Part shown: positions 9,315-15,758 of the stretch, in pieces
Layout: each line of letters opens with the position of its first letter
How positions within the stretch are numbered: the first letter of the stretch is position 1
Origin: Gemmatimonadaceae bacterium
GTDB lineage: Bacteria > Gemmatimonadota > Gemmatimonadetes > Gemmatimonadales > Gemmatimonadaceae
Direction: 5' to 3'
Length of the DNA: 64,000 bases
Assembly (NCBI GenBank): GCA_020851035.1
Contig: JADZDM010000005.1
Span: 248,001 to 312,000 of the forward strand
The notes under the pieces: model-generated
Told to the model about the DNA's origin: nothing
The model's database searches: none
The model's input: the letters and a program-made list of their open reading frames with translations, nothing else
Position numbers and translations under genes: made by a program

Positions 9315-9393
9315 CCCCGGTGGCGGTCGCGCGACCGTCGCCTCGACACCAGTGACACCTGTCCACCGCATCCCCTTCCCCAACCCCGCCGCC

Positions 9394-11502
9394 ATGTCAC
9401 GACCATCCCGCCTCCTGCTGCTGGCCGCCGCATTGCCCGCCGCACTCGGCGCGCAGGCGCCGCTCACCGGCTACCAGGGCACCGCCGCCAGTGCCGTGCA
9501 ACGCGACCTCGAACGACGCGCCATCGCGGTGCCGTCGGCGGATTCGTCGCGCCGCATCGCGCGCGTGCTGTCGCGCGAACCGCACGTCGCCGGCACACCG
9601 GCGCAGGAGCGCACCCGCGACTACGTCAACGGTGAACTGCGCCGGCTCGGGCTGCGTGTCGAGACCCGCAGCTACCGCGTGTACCTGCCGCACGCCACCG
9701 GCGTGCAGGTGTGGCGGGTGGCGCCCGCGCCGATGGAACTGCCGGTGGACGAGCCGGCGATCGGCAGCGATCCCGTCTCGGCGCTTCCGCAGTATCCCAC
9801 CGTCAACGGCTACAGCGCGGCAGGGGACGTGACCGGTGAGGTGGTGTACGTGAACTACGGCCTGGTGGAGGACTACGCGCGGCTGGACGCGATGGGCGTG
9901 TCGGTGCGCGGGAAGGTCGTGATCGCGCGCTACGGCCGGAGCTTCCGCGGGATCAAGGCGCGCGAGGCGGAGCAGCACGGTGCGACCGCGATCCTGATCT
10001 ACAGCGATCCCGGCGACGACGGCTACGCGGCCGGGGATGTGTACCCCGAGGGCCCGATGCGCAACGCCCGCGGCGTGCAGCGCGGCAGCGTGTACAACGG
10101 CTACGGCGATCCGTCCACGCCCGGCTACGGCGCCACGGTGAACGCGCCGCGGGTGCCGGCGAGCGAGATGGCGATTCCGCACATCCCGGTGGTGCCGGTG
10201 TCGTACGGCACCGCGGCGGCGCTGCTGGAGGGGATCCGCGGCACCGGCATCCAGCAGGGCTCGGGATGGCAGGGTGGCCTGCCGTTCCGCTATCACGTCG
10301 GTCCCGGCCCCGTGCAGGCACGCGTGCGTGTCACGCTCGACGACGCGCCGTTCAAGATGATCCACAACACCATCGCGACGCTGCCCGGGCGCGCGAGCGC
10401 CGACGAGGTGATCGTGATCGGTGGGCATCGCGACGCGTGGGGGGCGGGAGCCGGCGACAACGTGAGCGGCATCACCAGCATCCTGGAGTCCGCACGCGCG
10501 GTGGTGCGCGCACTCGACGGCCGGTCGCCGGCGCGCACGCTGGTCTTCGCCACCTGGGATGCCGAGGAGTGGGGCATGCTCGGCTCGACCGAGTTCGTGG
10601 AGGACGATTCACTGCGCCTGCAGCGCGGCGGCGTGGCGTACCTGAACCTGGACGTGAGCGCGACCGGCCTCGATTTCGGCGCCGGCGGCTCGCCGTCGCT
10701 GCGGGCACTCACGCGCGAGCTGGCGCGGGAGGTGCCGGATCCGCGCGGTGCCGGCTCGATCTACGCTGCCTGGCGCGCGCGGGCGGGCGTGTCCGACTCG
10801 ACCGAGCCGGCGATGGGTGACCCCGGCGGTGGCTCCGATTTCGCGGGCTTCTACAACCACTTCGGCATTCCGCACGCCGACTGGGGCTTCGGCGGCCCGG
10901 GTGGCGTCTACCACTCGGCGTACGACTCGAACCGCTGGATGGAGCAGTTCGGCGACACCGGCTACGTGGCGCATGCCGCGGCCGCGCGGCTGGCGGCGGC
11001 GATGCTGCTCCGCCTGGCCAACGCCGACATCGTCCCATACGACTACGCGGAGTTCGGCCGCACCATGCGGCGGTACACGGACCGGACCAGCCGGCTGCTG
11101 GCGTCGATCGGGGCCGGTGACGCGGCGCCACTGGACGCGGCCTGGGTGCGGTTCACCGACCGCGCGGTGGCGTTCAACCGCACGCGTGACAGCGTGCTCG
11201 CGCGTGGCGGCGTGGCGCCGGCAGCGTTGCGCACGGCGAACGCTGCGCTGCGCCAGGTGGAACGGCGGCTGTCGCGGCCAGAGGGATTGCGGTCGCGAAA
11301 GTGGGTGCGCGGCGTGATCTACGCGGCCGACGTGGACAACGGCTACTCGACGATGATCTTCCCGACGATCGGGGAGGCGGTGCGCGCAGGGGACGCGGCG
11401 CTGGCCCGCTCGGAACTGGCCGACCTGGTGTCGCGCATCGGCACGGCGGGGGCTGCGCTGGACGAGGCGCGCAGCGCACTGGCCCCGACCGGCGGGCGGT
11501 GA
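9394..11502 (+). CDS. Secreted M28-family zinc peptidase (glutamate carboxypeptidase II-like)
   Basis: Exported zinc aminopeptidase or carboxypeptidase. With the ATG at 9394 the protein has 702 residues and begins with a signal peptide ending near ALGAQAP; the upstream GTG (9352) would spoil it. Order of parts: an N-terminal segment, a PA domain (roughly 120-270), the M28 catalytic domain with GGHRDAWGAGAGDN, WDAEEWGMLGSTE, GGGSDFAGFYNHFGIP and YHSAYDSNRW carrying the zinc ligands and catalytic Glu, and a C-terminal helical TFR-like dimerisation domain. This architecture is that of the glutamate carboxypeptidase II/transferrin-receptor group. Its role is probably extracellular peptide degradation for nutrition. 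Confidence 0.88.
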   Translation: MSRPSRLLLLAAALPAALGAQAPLTGYQGTAASAVQRDLERRAIAVPSADSSRRIARVLSREPHVAGTPAQERTRDYVNGELRRLGLRVETRSYRVYLPHATGVQVWRVAPAPMELPVDEPAIGSDPVSALPQYPTVNGYSAAGDVTGEVVYVNYGLVEDYARLDAMGVSVRGKVVIARYGRSFRGIKAREAEQHGATAILIYSDPGDDGYAAGDVYPEGPMRNARGVQRGSVYNGYGDPSTPGYGATVNAPRVPASEMAIPHIPVVPVSYGTAAALLEGIRGTGIQQGSGWQGGLPFRYHVGPGPVQARVRVTLDDAPFKMIHNTIATLPGRASADEVIVIGGHRDAWGAGAGDNVSGITSILESARAVVRALDGRSPARTLVFATWDAEEWGMLGSTEFVEDDSLRLQRGGVAYLNLDVSATGLDFGAGGSPSLRALTRELAREVPDPRGAGSIYAAWRARAGVSDSTEPAMGDPGGGSDFAGFYNHFGIPHADWGFGGPGGVYHSAYDSNRWMEQFGDTGYVAHAAAARLAAAMLLRLANADIVPYDYAEFGRTMRRYTDRTSRLLASIGAGDAAPLDAAWVRFTDRAVAFNRTRDSVLARGGVAPAALRTANAALRQVERRLSRPEGLRSRKWVRGVIYAADVDNGYSTMIFPTIGEAVRAGDAALARSELADLVSRIGTAGAALDEARSALAPTGGR

Positions 11503-11538: not shown

Positions 11539-12636
11539 TCAGTCGCGGCGCCGCAGGTCGTCGAGGGTGACGGGGCGTGGCGCCGGCAGGGGCGATTCCG
11601 GCGCCACGACACGATCCGCGACGGGATCGCGTCGATCACCGATGGAGACCACGCGCTCGATCGGACGCGCATGCAGGGAGGGCGACGTGGGCGGCACATG
11701 CCCTTCCATCACGGTGCGCGGGTGAGCCGCGGCCGGTCGTCCGGCAGCGCTGCCCGGTGCGACAGCGGGTGCCGCCTCGATCCGAGCCGCCTCGTGAAAC
11801 GCCACTGGTGCCGGCGCCTGGTCCCCACCTGGCGTGTCCGCACTGTGGCTGTCCTCGGTGGGACGCAGGTCAAGCCAGGCCGGCGCCTCGAAGATCGGGG
11901 AGAGCGCGCGCAGCGGTTCGATGGCGGCGATGGCAGCGCGCCCCTCCTCCGTGCCATGGGTGCCATCTGCGCCCGTGCAGACGCAGCGATACGCGCCGGC
12001 GGGATCGATCAGTGTCGGTCCACCATCGAAGAGTGCGTCTGCCACGGCCAGCAGCGGATTCTGTCTTCCGCCCAGCGTGACGACCTGCCGTCGCAGCAGG
12101 GCATCGACGAGGTCGGGGCGTGGTGCCCCGCCCGGCAGCGACAGAAAGCGACGGCGATCCGGCGGGAGGCGATCGTCGAAAACCGTGGGCTGTGACATGA
12201 GGACGATCCCACGCATCGGCAACCCGCGCAGGAACGCCTCGGGCAGCACCTGGAGGTCGATGGCGGGGTCCTGTCCCGAGGGGCAGGCACCGACGTAGGT
12301 GAGGTGCGTCACATCGGTGCGCTGCAGGCGGAGTGCGCGCGCGAGTGCCACGGGTGCCGGCGCGACGGCAACGGTGACGTCGTCGAGGTTGGCCTCTCGC
12401 TTGCAGAGTTGCGAGAGCGCGAACGGGCATGAACACTGCACGACCGGACGGCGGCCGCGAAGCTGCGCGAGTCGCAGTGTCTCGCCGGCGACGAGTTCGT
12501 CACCGAGGCTCGCCGGCACGACCGCATCGAACCCTGCTGCCAGCGCTGCGTGCAGCAGCTGGACCGGGTGCGCAGGCGCCGCCGCGAGGAACGCGTCGTT
12601 GCCGAGGATTGCGATCGAGTATGGCGGAGCGCTCAC
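11539..12636 (-). CDS. Orphan [FeFe]-hydrogenase large-subunit-like protein
   Basis: The first ~210 residues resemble the C-terminal (H-cluster) domain of iron-only hydrogenases and Nar1-type relatives: an IAILG start, a helix with ALAAGFDAVVPASLGDEL, the segment VVQCSCPFALSQLCKRE in place of the usual SSCCP motif, VAPAPVALARAL, then LTYVGACPSG where hydrogenases have GPC(M/I)AKK. Other cysteines form RCVCTG. No ferredoxin-type N-terminal domain is present and the active-site motifs are altered, so hydrogenase activity is unlikely. The last ~110 residues are Pro/Ala-rich and probably disordered. The GTG at 12636 is preferred to an in-frame TTG at 12708 because the family begins there and composition changes upstream. 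Function unknown; Fe-S binding is possible. Confidence 0.5.
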   Translation of the reverse strand: MSAPPYSIAILGNDAFLAAAPAHPVQLLHAALAAGFDAVVPASLGDELVAGETLRLAQLRGRRPVVQCSCPFALSQLCKREANLDDVTVAVAPAPVALARALRLQRTDVTHLTYVGACPSGQDPAIDLQVLPEAFLRGLPMRGIVLMSQPTVFDDRLPPDRRRFLSLPGGAPRPDLVDALLRRQVVTLGGRQNPLLAVADALFDGGPTLIDPAGAYRCVCTGADGTHGTEEGRAAIAAIEPLRALSPIFEAPAWLDLRPTEDSHSADTPGGDQAPAPVAFHEAARIEAAPAVAPGSAAGRPAAAHPRTVMEGHVPPTSPSLHARPIERVVSIGDRRDPVADRVVAPESPLPAPRPVTLDDLRRRD

Positions 12637-13099
12637 GCGAGGCGTGCCGTGGGAGGGGATTGCAGCTGGCTTACGGCTCAGATCGGTGGCAACATGCTTG
12701 CCAACCAACCTCTACCGCAAAACTGCACCACGTGCCTCGAGGCAAATGCTGTCTAACAGCATGCCCTGATTGAACTTGCATGTGTGGAGCGTCCTCGCAC
12801 GCATCGTCGCGTGGCAATGGGATACCGCGTCCGTCAGAACGGGCTGTTGCGTCGGAACCTCAAGTTTGGCACAGCCCGTCTCAGAATCTTAAAACGTCAC
12901 GGGCTGCTTTGCATTGTTAGAGACGCCTGAATATCGCGAATTGCCTCGCCAGGTGTTTTCTCGTCGTGGGGCGATGGTTTCGCAGCGCGACCGGCTAGCG
13001 TTGGGCTGGCTCCGCGACGGCACCGCGGATCCGGGTGTACCTGGCGCGCGACCGGTCAGCGCCCGCACTTCCCTTCCGGCTCAGCCCTCGATCCGCCCC
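12637..13099. other. Noncoding stretch with lower GC
   Basis: This divergent intergenic region of about 460 bases is visibly less GC-rich than the flanks, especially 12660-12960. It must carry promoters for the flanking genes. An open frame from 12914 continues into the rhodanese gene but its N-terminal part has no recognisable protein character. I see no tRNA, riboswitch or clear operator. Confidence 0.4.
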
Positions 13100-13432
13100 A
13101 TGCCCGCTCCTGCGCTCGTCGAACTGACCCCGGCCGAAGTCCGTGAGGCCATGCGCTCCCGCCCAGACGTCACGCTGGTGGACGTCCGGGAGCCCGCCGA
13201 ACATGCGATCGCGCGCATCGAAGGTGCCGTGCTGATCCCGCTTCGCACGATTCCGCAGCAGCTCGAGGCGCTGCCGCGCGACCATGAGATCATCCTCTTC
13301 TGCCACCACGGGATGCGGAGCGAGATGGCCGGACGTTTCCTGCTGGCGCAAGGCTATGCCCGGGTGGCGCACCTTCCGGGCGGGATCGATCGCTGGAGTG
13401 ACGAGGTGGACCAGGCCGTCCCGAAGTACTGA
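13100..13432 (+). CDS. Single-domain rhodanese
   Basis: A 110-residue rhodanese module, possibly a sulfurtransferase or redox-related carrier. The fold markers are LVDVREPAEHAIARI, IPLRTIPQQL and the active loop CHHGMRS, whose cysteine would carry the persulfide; PGGIDRWSDEVD closes the domain. I start at ATG 13100 because upstream residues are low-complexity and lie in the AT-richer spacer. It is followed after three bases by the esterase gene, so the two are probably cotranscribed. Physiological partner is not evident. Confidence 0.85.
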   Translation: MPAPALVELTPAEVREAMRSRPDVTLVDVREPAEHAIARIEGAVLIPLRTIPQQLEALPRDHEIILFCHHGMRSEMAGRFLLAQGYARVAHLPGGIDRWSDEVDQAVPKY

Positions 13433-13435
13433 GGC

Positions 13436-14347
13436 ATGCTGCGGGCCATCGCCGCTGGTTCCGGGACGGCCGTGATGCTGCACGCGATGCGGTATCGCTG
13501 GCTGCTGGCACGCACCCGCGCGGCGGAGTCGGCCCGCCTGCCGGTCGGATCCGATGGCATCGTGCCCGGCGCGGAACCCTTCACGCTCCCGGGCAGCGAC
13601 AGTCATGCCGCGCTGCTCGTCCACGGGTTCGGTGACACGCCTCAGACGGTGCGGCAGCTCGGTGACTACCTCAATCGCACACACGGCTGGACGGTGCGCG
13701 GCACATTGCTGCCGGGCCATGGCCGCGACCTGCGGGCGTTCGATCGGTGCGACGCGACGGCGTGGCGGACGCATGTCCATGCCGAGTACCGGCAGCTCCG
13801 TCAGCGCTACGACACCGTGGTGCTGGTCGGGTTGTCGATGGGAGGTGCCCTGACGACGATCGAGGCGGCCGCGGATCCGTCGCTGCCGGCGCTGGTGCTG
13901 CTGGTGCCGTACCTCACGCCGCCGGCCCGTGCCGAGCGACTGGCGCCGATCGCGCCGCTCATCAACCTGATGGTGCCGTACCTCAGGGGGGGCGACCGCA
14001 ACGCCTCGATCTTCGATCCTGACGCCCGGGAGCGCTCGCTGGGCGCGGGGGCATCACCTCCCCGGCGGATTGCCGATCTCGTGGCGGTGGCGCACGACGC
14101 GCGCTTTGCCGCCGCCGACGTGCAGGCACCGACGCTCCTGATCCATTCGCGCAGCGACTACCGCATCCCGGTACCGCTGGCGGAGCGGCACCCTGGCTTC
14201 TTCACGGCGGCGCGGGTCTGCGAGCAGCGCTGGATGGAGGGGAGCGGGCACGTCATCACGGTGGATTTCTGCCGCGAGACGGTGTGGGCCGAGACCGCGG
14301 CGTGGCTTGCGCGCCACGCGGGCGCGCCGCGCCATCGCACGTCCTGA
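13436..14347 (+). CDS. Alpha/beta hydrolase (esterase or monoacylglycerol lipase-like)
   Basis: A 303-residue alpha/beta-hydrolase-fold enzyme. The oxyanion region is ALLVHGFGDTPQTVR, the nucleophile elbow is GLSMGG, the acid is in SRSDYRIPVP and the base in MEGSGHVIT, giving a complete Ser-Asp-His triad in canonical order. The LLPGHGRDLRAF segment after strand 4 is typical of bacterial carboxylesterases and monoacylglycerol lipases of the Est30 type. A hydrophobic stretch near the N-terminus could be a weak membrane anchor. The start follows the rhodanese stop by three bases. Substrate not predictable. Confidence 0.8.
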   Translation: MLRAIAAGSGTAVMLHAMRYRWLLARTRAAESARLPVGSDGIVPGAEPFTLPGSDSHAALLVHGFGDTPQTVRQLGDYLNRTHGWTVRGTLLPGHGRDLRAFDRCDATAWRTHVHAEYRQLRQRYDTVVLVGLSMGGALTTIEAAADPSLPALVLLVPYLTPPARAERLAPIAPLINLMVPYLRGGDRNASIFDPDARERSLGAGASPPRRIADLVAVAHDARFAAADVQAPTLLIHSRSDYRIPVPLAERHPGFFTAARVCEQRWMEGSGHVITVDFCRETVWAETAAWLARHAGAPRHRTS

Positions 14348-14760
14348 CGGGTCACCGGATCAGCCATCTGTTGCACCGCGGCGGCCAATCGCTTGACTGA
14401 TCGGCTGTGGCACCGCGCAAGCAAGGTTGCACAACGCCATTTCAATGCTTCAGTTCGACAAACGAGCCGAGCTCTGCCACACATGAAAGCCAGAGCCCGC
14501 TGCTCTCGCGTAAACACTTGTACACAAGGCGTTTAGGCGGCAAATCGTCCGTCGGATGCGCAGGCGCAGTATGTGGCTCCGGGCAAAAACAGTACAGGTG
14601 CCGTCAAGAAATTTGGCGGACCCTGCTGCAATTGCCCATGGCATGATCCGCGATATGGAAGGGAACGCTGAGATCCGGTCGAAGTTGCCGGGTCGCCGTG
14701 GCTGGGGGCACCGGGCGGTGTCCAGCCGCGCATCCCCTTCCCGCCCGCTCTCGGACCACT
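14348..14760. other. Upstream region of the pilus locus
   Basis: About 410 bases with no convincing gene; the start and middle are less GC-rich than the average. An interrupted palindrome CTTGT-AC-ACAAG lies at 14517-14528. The 3' part (14580-14760) would be the leader of the first pilin gene. I searched it by eye for a cyclic-di-GMP riboswitch because of the pilus context and could not find the required conserved core. Confidence 0.35.
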
Positions 14761-15252
14761 ATGCGCACCGTACGATTTGCGGCCCTTGCCGCGCTCCTCG
14801 TCCCTGCCCTTGCCCAGGCCCAGTCGGCCAACGTGGCGGCAACGGCGACTGTTGTCACGCCGCTGGTGGTGACCGGCGCCGCGCCGCTCGCCTTCGGCAA
14901 TGTCTTCCAGGGCGTGAACAAGACCGTGCTGCACAGCGATGCAGCGAGCGGCCGGTTCAGCATCGCCGGCTTCGGCACCTCGCAGGTGGCGATGACCTTC
15001 ACGCTGCCGGCCTCGCTGGCCAGCGGCGCGAACACGCTGCCGATCGACAACTGGGACATCCGCAGCAATGGCACGAACGTCACCGCCGGCGCGACGGCCC
15101 TCACGGTCGTCAGCGGCACCCCGGTGAACGCCAACCTCGTGGCGAGCAACCTGTACCTGTTCGTCGGTGGCCGCGTCGTGCCGGCCGTGGCGCAGGCCGC
15201 CGGGGCATACACCGGCTCCATCGTCCTCGCAGCCGCCTACACGGGCCTCTGA
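14761..15252 (+). CDS. DUF4402 pilin-like subunit 1
   Basis: A 163-residue secreted subunit. The signal peptide ends at ALAQAQS; the mature N-terminus NVAATATVVTPLVVTG alternates hydrophobic residues like the donor strand of chaperone-usher pilins. The body is all-beta, with GFGTSQVAMTFTLPASL and a closing VGGRVVPAVAQAAGAYTGS motif typical of DUF4402. I start at ATG 14761; the in-frame extension to 14698 would destroy the signal peptide. It is about 80% identical to the next gene, implying recent tandem duplication. It is the first gene of the pilus locus. Role as structural subunit is inferred from the chaperone and usher downstream. Confidence 0.82.
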   Translation: MRTVRFAALAALLVPALAQAQSANVAATATVVTPLVVTGAAPLAFGNVFQGVNKTVLHSDAASGRFSIAGFGTSQVAMTFTLPASLASGANTLPIDNWDIRSNGTNVTAGATALTVVSGTPVNANLVASNLYLFVGGRVVPAVAQAAGAYTGSIVLAAAYTGL

Positions 15253-15263
15253 GGAGCTGAGAC

Positions 15264-15758
15264 ATGAACGCCTCGCGATTCCTCGCCACGGCGGCGGCAC
15301 TCTGTGTCGCCGGCGCCGTGCAGGCGCAGAGCGCGTCGATCCAGGCGACGGCGACGGTGGTCACACCGCTCGTCGTCACCGGAACGGCGCCGCTGGCCTT
15401 CGGGAACGTGTTCCAGGGGGTGAACAAGACCGTGCTCCACGGCGACGCGACCAGCGGCCGCCTGAGTGTCACGGGCTTCGGGACCTCGCAGGTGGCACTC
15501 ACCTTCACGCTGCCGGCGACCCTCGCCAGCGGTGCGAACACGATGCCGATCAACAACTATGACATCCGCATCAACGGCACCAACACGCCCACCGGTGCCA
15601 CGGCGCTGGCGGTCGTGAGCGGGACGCCGGTGAACGCCAACCTCGTCGCGAGCAACCTGTTCGTGTTCGTGGGCGGGCGGGTGCAGCCGACCGCCGCGCA
15701 GGCGGCCGGTGCCTACACGGGATCGATCGTCCTCGCGGCCGCCTACACGGGGCTGTGA
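15264..15758 (+). CDS. DUF4402 pilin-like subunit 2
   Basis: A 164-residue paralogue of the preceding protein, with the same signal-peptide/donor-strand/beta-sandwich plan: cleavage near AVQAQS, then SIQATATVVTPLVVTG. GAGGAG sits 7 bases before the ATG, a strong ribosome-binding site fitting an abundant subunit. It lies 11 bases downstream of subunit 1 and its stop overlaps the start of subunit 3 by one base, so the three are cotranscribed. The region VVSGTPVNANLVASN is identical to subunit 1. Whether both are major subunits cannot be told from sequence. Confidence 0.82.
   Translation: MNASRFLATAAALCVAGAVQAQSASIQATATVVTPLVVTGTAPLAFGNVFQGVNKTVLHGDATSGRLSVTGFGTSQVALTFTLPATLASGANTMPINNYDIRINGTNTPTGATALAVVSGTPVNANLVASNLFVFVGGRVQPTAAQAAGAYTGSIVLAAAYTGL

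Follow-up and report, generated by a model that had tools for sequence, protein, structure and literature searches.

Sensory [FeFe]-hydrogenases of groups C and D are described as comprising an N-terminal 2x[4Fe-4S] part, an H-domain and a C-terminal four-cysteine Fe-S domain (PMC8163306, PMC13104023), and most are reported to be without the cysteine C299 (PMC8163306, PMC10055695). In TamHydS, H2 is reported to leave the C-terminal cluster unreduced (PMC13104023), and the articles consulted call signal relay in the sensory hydrogenases of these groups unresolved. The HydDB table links group C to histidine kinases (C1), chemotaxis and phosphatase, and names [NiFe] 2c as the one group linked to a diguanylate cyclase (PMC5037454). 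Nar1 is presented as a homologue of [FeFe]-hydrogenases that lacks the 2Fe subcluster, occurs in hosts without maturases and binds [4Fe-4S] at a site homologous to [4Fe-4S]H (PMC12621388).

The protein described here is encoded in a 64,000-nucleotide stretch of a Gemmatimonadaceae genome, referred to as the window. It has the H-domain fold and the missing C299 in common with the group C/D sensors TmHydS and TamHydS. Their layout of 2x[4Fe-4S], H-domain and four-cysteine Fe-S domain is found in the multidomain relatives of the window protein but not in the protein itself, which, unlike group C/D members, has no ferredoxin, C-terminal Fe-S or output domain, no maturases, no L2 lysine, a rearranged L3 and a disordered tail (with a transmembrane helix in many homologues). 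With the eukaryotic, NARF-like Nar1/IOP1/CIAO3 it shares a non-catalytic character, a cubane site, here with a predicted cluster, and the absence of maturases. Nar1, however, carries four further cysteines for another [4Fe-4S] site near its N-terminus, whereas the window protein has no cysteine in residues 1-66 and is bacterial. To our knowledge, non-catalytic relatives of [FeFe]-hydrogenases are known mainly from eukaryotes (Nar1).

The gene and its H-domain fold

The gene, its parts and its neighbours are listed below in window coordinates; f1 is the window's own family, whose homologues are single-domain proteins, and f2 a sister family of the same order.

12636..11539, minus: the gene, GTG start, 365 codons plus stop
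11851..12636, minus: degenerate [FeFe]-hydrogenase H-domain, residues 1-262, from the AlphaFold2 model and the PF02906 matches of homologues
12433..12435, minus: C68, extra lineage cysteine (C-x-C-P), C in 28/31
12430..12432, minus: S69, where CpI has its catalytic proton-shuttle cysteine, C299
12427..12429, minus: C70, first conserved cysteine, 31/31 single-domain homologues
12283..12285, minus: C118, second conserved cysteine (G-x-C-P; L2 motif), 31/31
11983..11985, minus: C218, third conserved cysteine (L3), 31/31
11977..11979, minus: C220, fourth conserved cysteine, relocated, 31/31 in f1 and 0/52 in f2
11908..11919, minus: E-P-(P/L)-R motif ending the domain, common to the multidomain sister proteins
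11542..11850, minus: Pro/Ala-rich disordered tail, residues 263-365, pLDDT mostly <60, no transmembrane helix
11644..11700, minus: short conserved tail motif HVPPTSPSLHARPIERVVS, from a three-way alignment within the genus
9352-11502, plus: M28 peptidase, flanking the gene on one side
12914-13432, plus: rhodanese, flanking the gene on the other side
13436-14347, plus: alpha/beta hydrolase, adjoining the rhodanese

The original prediction had placed a gene in this interval, and had read its product as an orphan derived from the catalytic domain of [FeFe]-hydrogenases; an open reading frame is present there on the minus strand, and the motifs quoted for it (VVQCSCP, APAPVALARAL and LTYVGACPSG) occur in H-domain order. 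Upstream of the GTG the same frame stays open as far as a TTG at 12708, and the GTG start and the N-terminus are common to two congeners.

As a single sequence the protein has no Pfam match, a PDB search with it gave nothing useful, and the NCBIfam model FeFe_hydrog_B1 scores it at E 0.035. The PF02906 profile has no match at E<=10 in the whole genome of the window, so that routine annotation overlooks the gene. Homologues give a different picture: 15 of the 22 f1 homologue domains match PF02906 (best E 6.8e-9), and a joint profile of 37 sequences (22 from f1 and 15 from f2) matches HydA in the PDB at E 1.1e-5, as against E 0.2 for the f1 profile alone. Comparison by hhalign of the 22 single-domain f1 sequences with the 15 GGDEF-type f2 sequences gives a probability of 99.9 and an E of 9.3e-36 over 260 columns.

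An AlphaFold2 model built with the 37 sequences has a pLDDT of at least 90 at 207 of 365 residues, nearly all within the first 260, and mostly >85 up to residue 260. Its top Foldseek matches in the PDB are [FeFe]-hydrogenases (1.4e-6). Against CpI of C. pasteurianum (4xdd_A), VIA-align yields a Z of 17.8 and an rmsd of 3.9 over 263 aligned residues at 11% identity, covering model residues 2-272. Among 999 chains 74 reach a Z of at least 8, the interval from 5 to 8 is empty, and all 50 of the matches listed are [FeFe]-hydrogenases or complexes containing one. Membership of PF02906, as a profile match together with the H-domain fold, is thereby reached through homologues and model and not through the single sequence. 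The proposed descent was accordingly borne out by both the profile search, which is significant once homologues are included, and the structural comparison, which returns the hydrogenase domain. The likeness to the H-domain is homology and not chance, and the case for the fold and for descent from the [FeFe]-hydrogenase domain is strong.

Domain residues 1-244 have a dN/dS of 0.17-0.20 in three congener pairs (Nei-Gojobori), values that are only rough because the dS of these pairs, 1.0-1.4, is near saturation. They indicate that the H-domain is under purifying selection. Across 22 single-domain sequences 27 columns are invariant.

Distribution, locus and multidomain relatives

A homologue was found in 34 of 60 relatives: 17 of 36 f1 genomes (the window's own included), all 17 f2 genomes (two of these matches, in G046 and G057, being weak) and none of 7 in family f3. 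The protein is therefore no orphan. For comparison, 97 H-domain rows were assembled (31 from f1, 52 from f2, 12 from families f7 and f9, and 2 from f11). Some matches were left out of these rows, among them the G046 and G154 genes and, in G057, G059 and G267, fragments or second copies.

The f1 homologues lie mostly at one shared chromosomal locus. In the window the gene stands alone, and the genes flanking it are all on the plus strand. In a comparison of 22 loci, members of the peptidase family turn up at 11 and members of the hydrolase family at 15, so that the gene has a constant chromosomal position within f1. These neighbours are unrelated enzymes on the opposite strand, and we found no functional link to them. 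Paralogues elsewhere (L013/L060, L062, L066, L033 and L034) have no neighbour family in common, counting families present in at least three genomes.

Further along the plus strand of the window are two tandem, closely similar and apparently secreted proteins (14698-15252 and 15264-15758) whose matches to DUF4402 stay below threshold (E 3.2e-4 and 4.7e-5), followed by ORFs of 666 aa (no Pfam match) and 1096 aa (one weak match); together these are perhaps a surface or fibre operon.

The f2 proteins combine ferredoxin, H-domain, Fe-S domain and GGDEF. All three scanned match PF02906 (2e-9 to 7e-22), PF04060 (FeS) and PF00990 (GGDEF), and two have Fer4 domains, the third being cut at its N-terminus. 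By motif, the ferredoxin part is present in 51 of 52 f2 proteins (the exception is truncated at a contig end) and 11 of 12 from f7/f9, and the FeS part in 52/52 and 6/12; neither part was found by motif scan in the 31 f1 proteins, and the window protein has no such Pfam domain, as the original prediction had said of ferredoxin domains. The GGDEF motif is present in 52/52 f2 and 10/12 f7/f9 proteins, the remaining two of the latter (L109 and L111) reading GGDEL and GGDEM, and in 0/31 f1 and 0/2 f11 proteins. With the f2 proteins (L018-L030 and others) the window protein shares a homologous H-domain and the motifs (P/E)(D/E)RRR..S..GG and EPPR; they differ from it in being multidomain, in their diguanylate cyclase output and in the CxxC of L3.

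The f2 gene is preceded by a sigma-54 activator, whose family occurs in 12 of 13 f2 loci compared, and a gene for a MASE9-HD protein lies downstream in f2 neighbourhoods. Directly behind the f2 gene in 8 of the 13 loci is a conserved protein of ~240 aa without a Pfam match (L037:11051-11773, plus), a possible partner. We found no published name for the f2 proteins. Among the matches listed, keyword searches gave no paper on GGDEF-linked relatives of [FeFe]-hydrogenases, an absence that is no proof of their being unpublished, and none on such relatives in Gemmatimonadota; for [FeFe]-hydrogenase together with this phylum a single paper was listed, on sediments.

In f11 the protein L114 consists of Fer4, PF02906 (6e-47), FeS, HisKA and HATPase. 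L114 and L115 (genomes G060 and G065) resemble C1 members, on the domain scan in the case of L114, and are apparently genuine H2-sensing histidine kinases of the group C1 kind. HydG and HydF of G060 lie ~4 to 7 kb downstream of the sensor gene of this type, on the same contig. Proteins L102-L113 and 27 of the 52 f2 proteins are GGDEF receptors with the hydrogenase fold and none or one of the four cluster cysteines, and may be regarded as putative cluster-free pseudo-hydrogenase sensor domains. In L108 (G202), an open frame of 1247 residues, the GGDEF-type protein is joined by a long poly-Ala stretch to unrelated outer-membrane-like sequence, perhaps an assembly or frame artefact.

Cysteines, maturases and tail

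HMMER aligns C70 to the second cysteine of SCCP in a hydrogenase; we take it to be cubane ligand C300 of CpI, with the preceding residue at C299 (CpI numbering). In all 31 single-domain proteins the C299 position holds S, A, V, I or H, never C. The position of C68 is S in all 52 f2 sister proteins. The catalytic-loop lysine of L2 is missing, residue 121 being A or G in 31/31 single-domain proteins; f11 relatives keep it three residues past the cysteine (PCIAKK). C218 is also a cysteine in all 25 four-cysteine f2 proteins and in both f11 H2-sensor relatives. Spacing in L3 is CxC in f1, which mostly has GCxCxG, and CxxC in the four-cysteine f2 proteins (PCEGC, once PCDGC), and the glycine-rich L3 motif around the 2Fe subcluster of hydrogenases is lost in f1. 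Three of the four invariant f1 cysteines thus occupy ancestral cubane ligand positions and the fourth has moved. E240 and R243 are kept in all 31 single-domain and all 52 f2 proteins. The claim that cluster ligands and catalytic residues are altered is right for the catalytic cysteine and lysine, which are gone, and only partly so for the ligands, because conservation across homologues leaves all four cubane-site cysteines invariant, one of them relocated.

Among the f2 proteins 25 of 52 have all four cysteines, 18 none, nine one, and none two or three, the all-or-none pattern that a shared metal site predicts; these rows are not independent, since on the tree f2 divides by cysteine content only once. 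All 12 f7/f9 proteins are without any of the four. We infer that the four invariant cysteines of f1 would bind a [4Fe-4S] cluster alone, corresponding to the cubane portion of the H-cluster.

HydF was not found above cut-off in any of the 60 relatives, the window's own genome included. In a second set it was found in 2 of 15 genomes, exactly the two of f11, which serve as a positive control. HydG was absent from all 28 genomes of f1, f2, f7 and f9 examined, again with the window's own among them, and was found only in f11 (above cut-off in G060, and as a partial frame below cut-off in G065). The lack of maturation genes, previously noted for the neighbourhood, thus holds genome-wide for HydF and HydG. 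Because these maturases and the catalytic residues are missing, the window protein can hardly be a hydrogenase.

Following the E-P-L-R-A motif are 121 residues with 17% P and 17% A, in keeping with the Pro/Ala tail of ~110 residues originally described. Tail dN/dS is 0.31-0.59 in three congener pairs, faster than the domain yet not free, and HVPPTSPSLHARPIERVVS or close variants with few changes are present in all three genus members. A hydropathy scan shows a strongly hydrophobic transmembrane helix in the tails of 12 of 22 f1 proteins, a count unaffected by an overcounted tail length in L008, where the motif pattern matched early. The helix ends at most nine residues from the C-terminus in eight proteins, and 144-212 residues follow it in four (L013, L016, L062 and L066), the part beyond it in L062 and L066 ending in a charged, coiled-coil-like helix. 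Ten of 22 f1 tails contain PR(A/T)Y, in most cases with basic residues after it. In the three members of the window's genus the same scans found neither the tail helix nor PR(A/T)Y.

Function and descent of the family

The reading that we prefer, with a probability of about 0.5, is an H-domain protein without catalysis whose ancestor was a group C-type multidomain sensor and which, with the cubane only, signals redox or Fe-S status. Such a repurposed Fe-S or sensor protein had been suggested before and fits best, the closest multidomain relatives being receptor-like with GGDEF output. The retained cubane site suggests a [4Fe-4S] cluster supplied by the general machinery, as in Nar1. Ordinary ISC/SUF proteins would insert this cluster at the four cysteines, and its presence or redox state would set the conformation of the H-domain. 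The flexible tail would then relay the state of the domain to a bound partner, which homologues with a tail helix would meet at the membrane and members of the window's genus in the cytosol; what is signalled would be the status of redox, O2 or Fe-S clusters, not H2. That the switch is read through the tail is argued from the signalling relatives, and the sigma-54 activator and MASE9-HD protein encoded next to the f2 gene are evidence of signalling ancestry. Judged from its sequence, the window protein is thus probably a [4Fe-4S]-binding signaller of redox or Fe-S status that needs no maturases.

Several observations count against this reading. The CxC of L3 differs from hydrogenase spacing, and the neighbouring rhodanese, alpha/beta hydrolase and M28 peptidase are silent on redox or c-di-GMP. 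The gene is absent from 19 of 36 f1 genomes and therefore dispensable; the 27 f2 and 12 f7/f9 proteins without the cysteine set indicate that the fold can serve without a cluster; and the window's own genus is without a membrane anchor.

The main rival is cluster traffic of the Nar1 kind, in which the H-domain loads a cluster and hands it to clients, the tail recruiting these or the membrane. A cubane site without maturases is the very combination of Nar1, and the near-invariant extra C68 could permit cluster transfer. Patchy presence (17/36 genomes), however, ill suits a house-keeping assembly factor, there is no ferredoxin-like second site, and the nearest relatives bear a signalling output domain, so we regard a carrier or assembly factor as unlikely. 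Similarly doubtful is a protein-binding scaffold without Fe-S chemistry, its four cysteines binding zinc or forming disulphides. CxCP and CxC pairs also fit such chemistry, and the 27 cysteine-poor f2 proteins keep the fold without a cluster, but three of the four cysteines are at ancestral cubane ligand positions, and all four persist in 31/31 sequences despite fast evolution (stem of 1.9 changes per site). That the gene is functionless and decaying, as its absence from many relatives and the long branches might suggest, is very improbable given the low dN/dS of the domain, the intact frames, the 27 invariant columns and the synteny across the family. A working H2 sensor or hydrogenase with a full H-cluster has the fold, the cubane ligands and the frequent lack of C299 in group C/D sensors on its side, and is scarcely credible in a genome without HydF and HydG and a protein that has lost the L2 lysine and the glycine-rich L3 loop.

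The f1 domain shares descent with the ferredoxin/H-domain/Fe-S/GGDEF protein of f2 and has lost the flanking domains. In a quick tree f1 forms one group of 31 (SH-aLRT 99), whose position relative to f2 and f7/f9 is left unplaced, with a warning of long branches. Constraining f1 to group with the four-cysteine f2 proteins raises the likelihood by 20.6 over that of the free quick tree, and the AU test does not reject this grouping (p-AU 0.88). The simplest order consistent with the data, resting on an outgroup of two (f11), leads from a kinase-type H2 sensor to cubane-only GGDEF receptors, with the cluster subsequently lost in two lines and the other domains in the window's line.

More broadly, and tentatively, a group C-type H2-sensing histidine kinase may have been rebuilt stepwise, its H-cluster replaced by a maturase-free [4Fe-4S] cluster and its output by a diguanylate cyclase. 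Two lineages would then have emptied the fold, and the window's lineage would have kept the cluster and a disordered, often membrane-anchored tail with no other domain. We consider this account somewhat short of an even chance. If true, the hydrogenase fold is a reusable sensor module for a signal other than H2. The family would be a bacterial one with the cubane site only, in genomes free of HydF, and the phylum also has apparent full H-cluster sensors and predicted cubane-only and cluster-free GGDEF receptors. Together they form a natural series for asking what an H-domain senses after its H2 chemistry is gone, and how sensory hydrogenases relay their signal.
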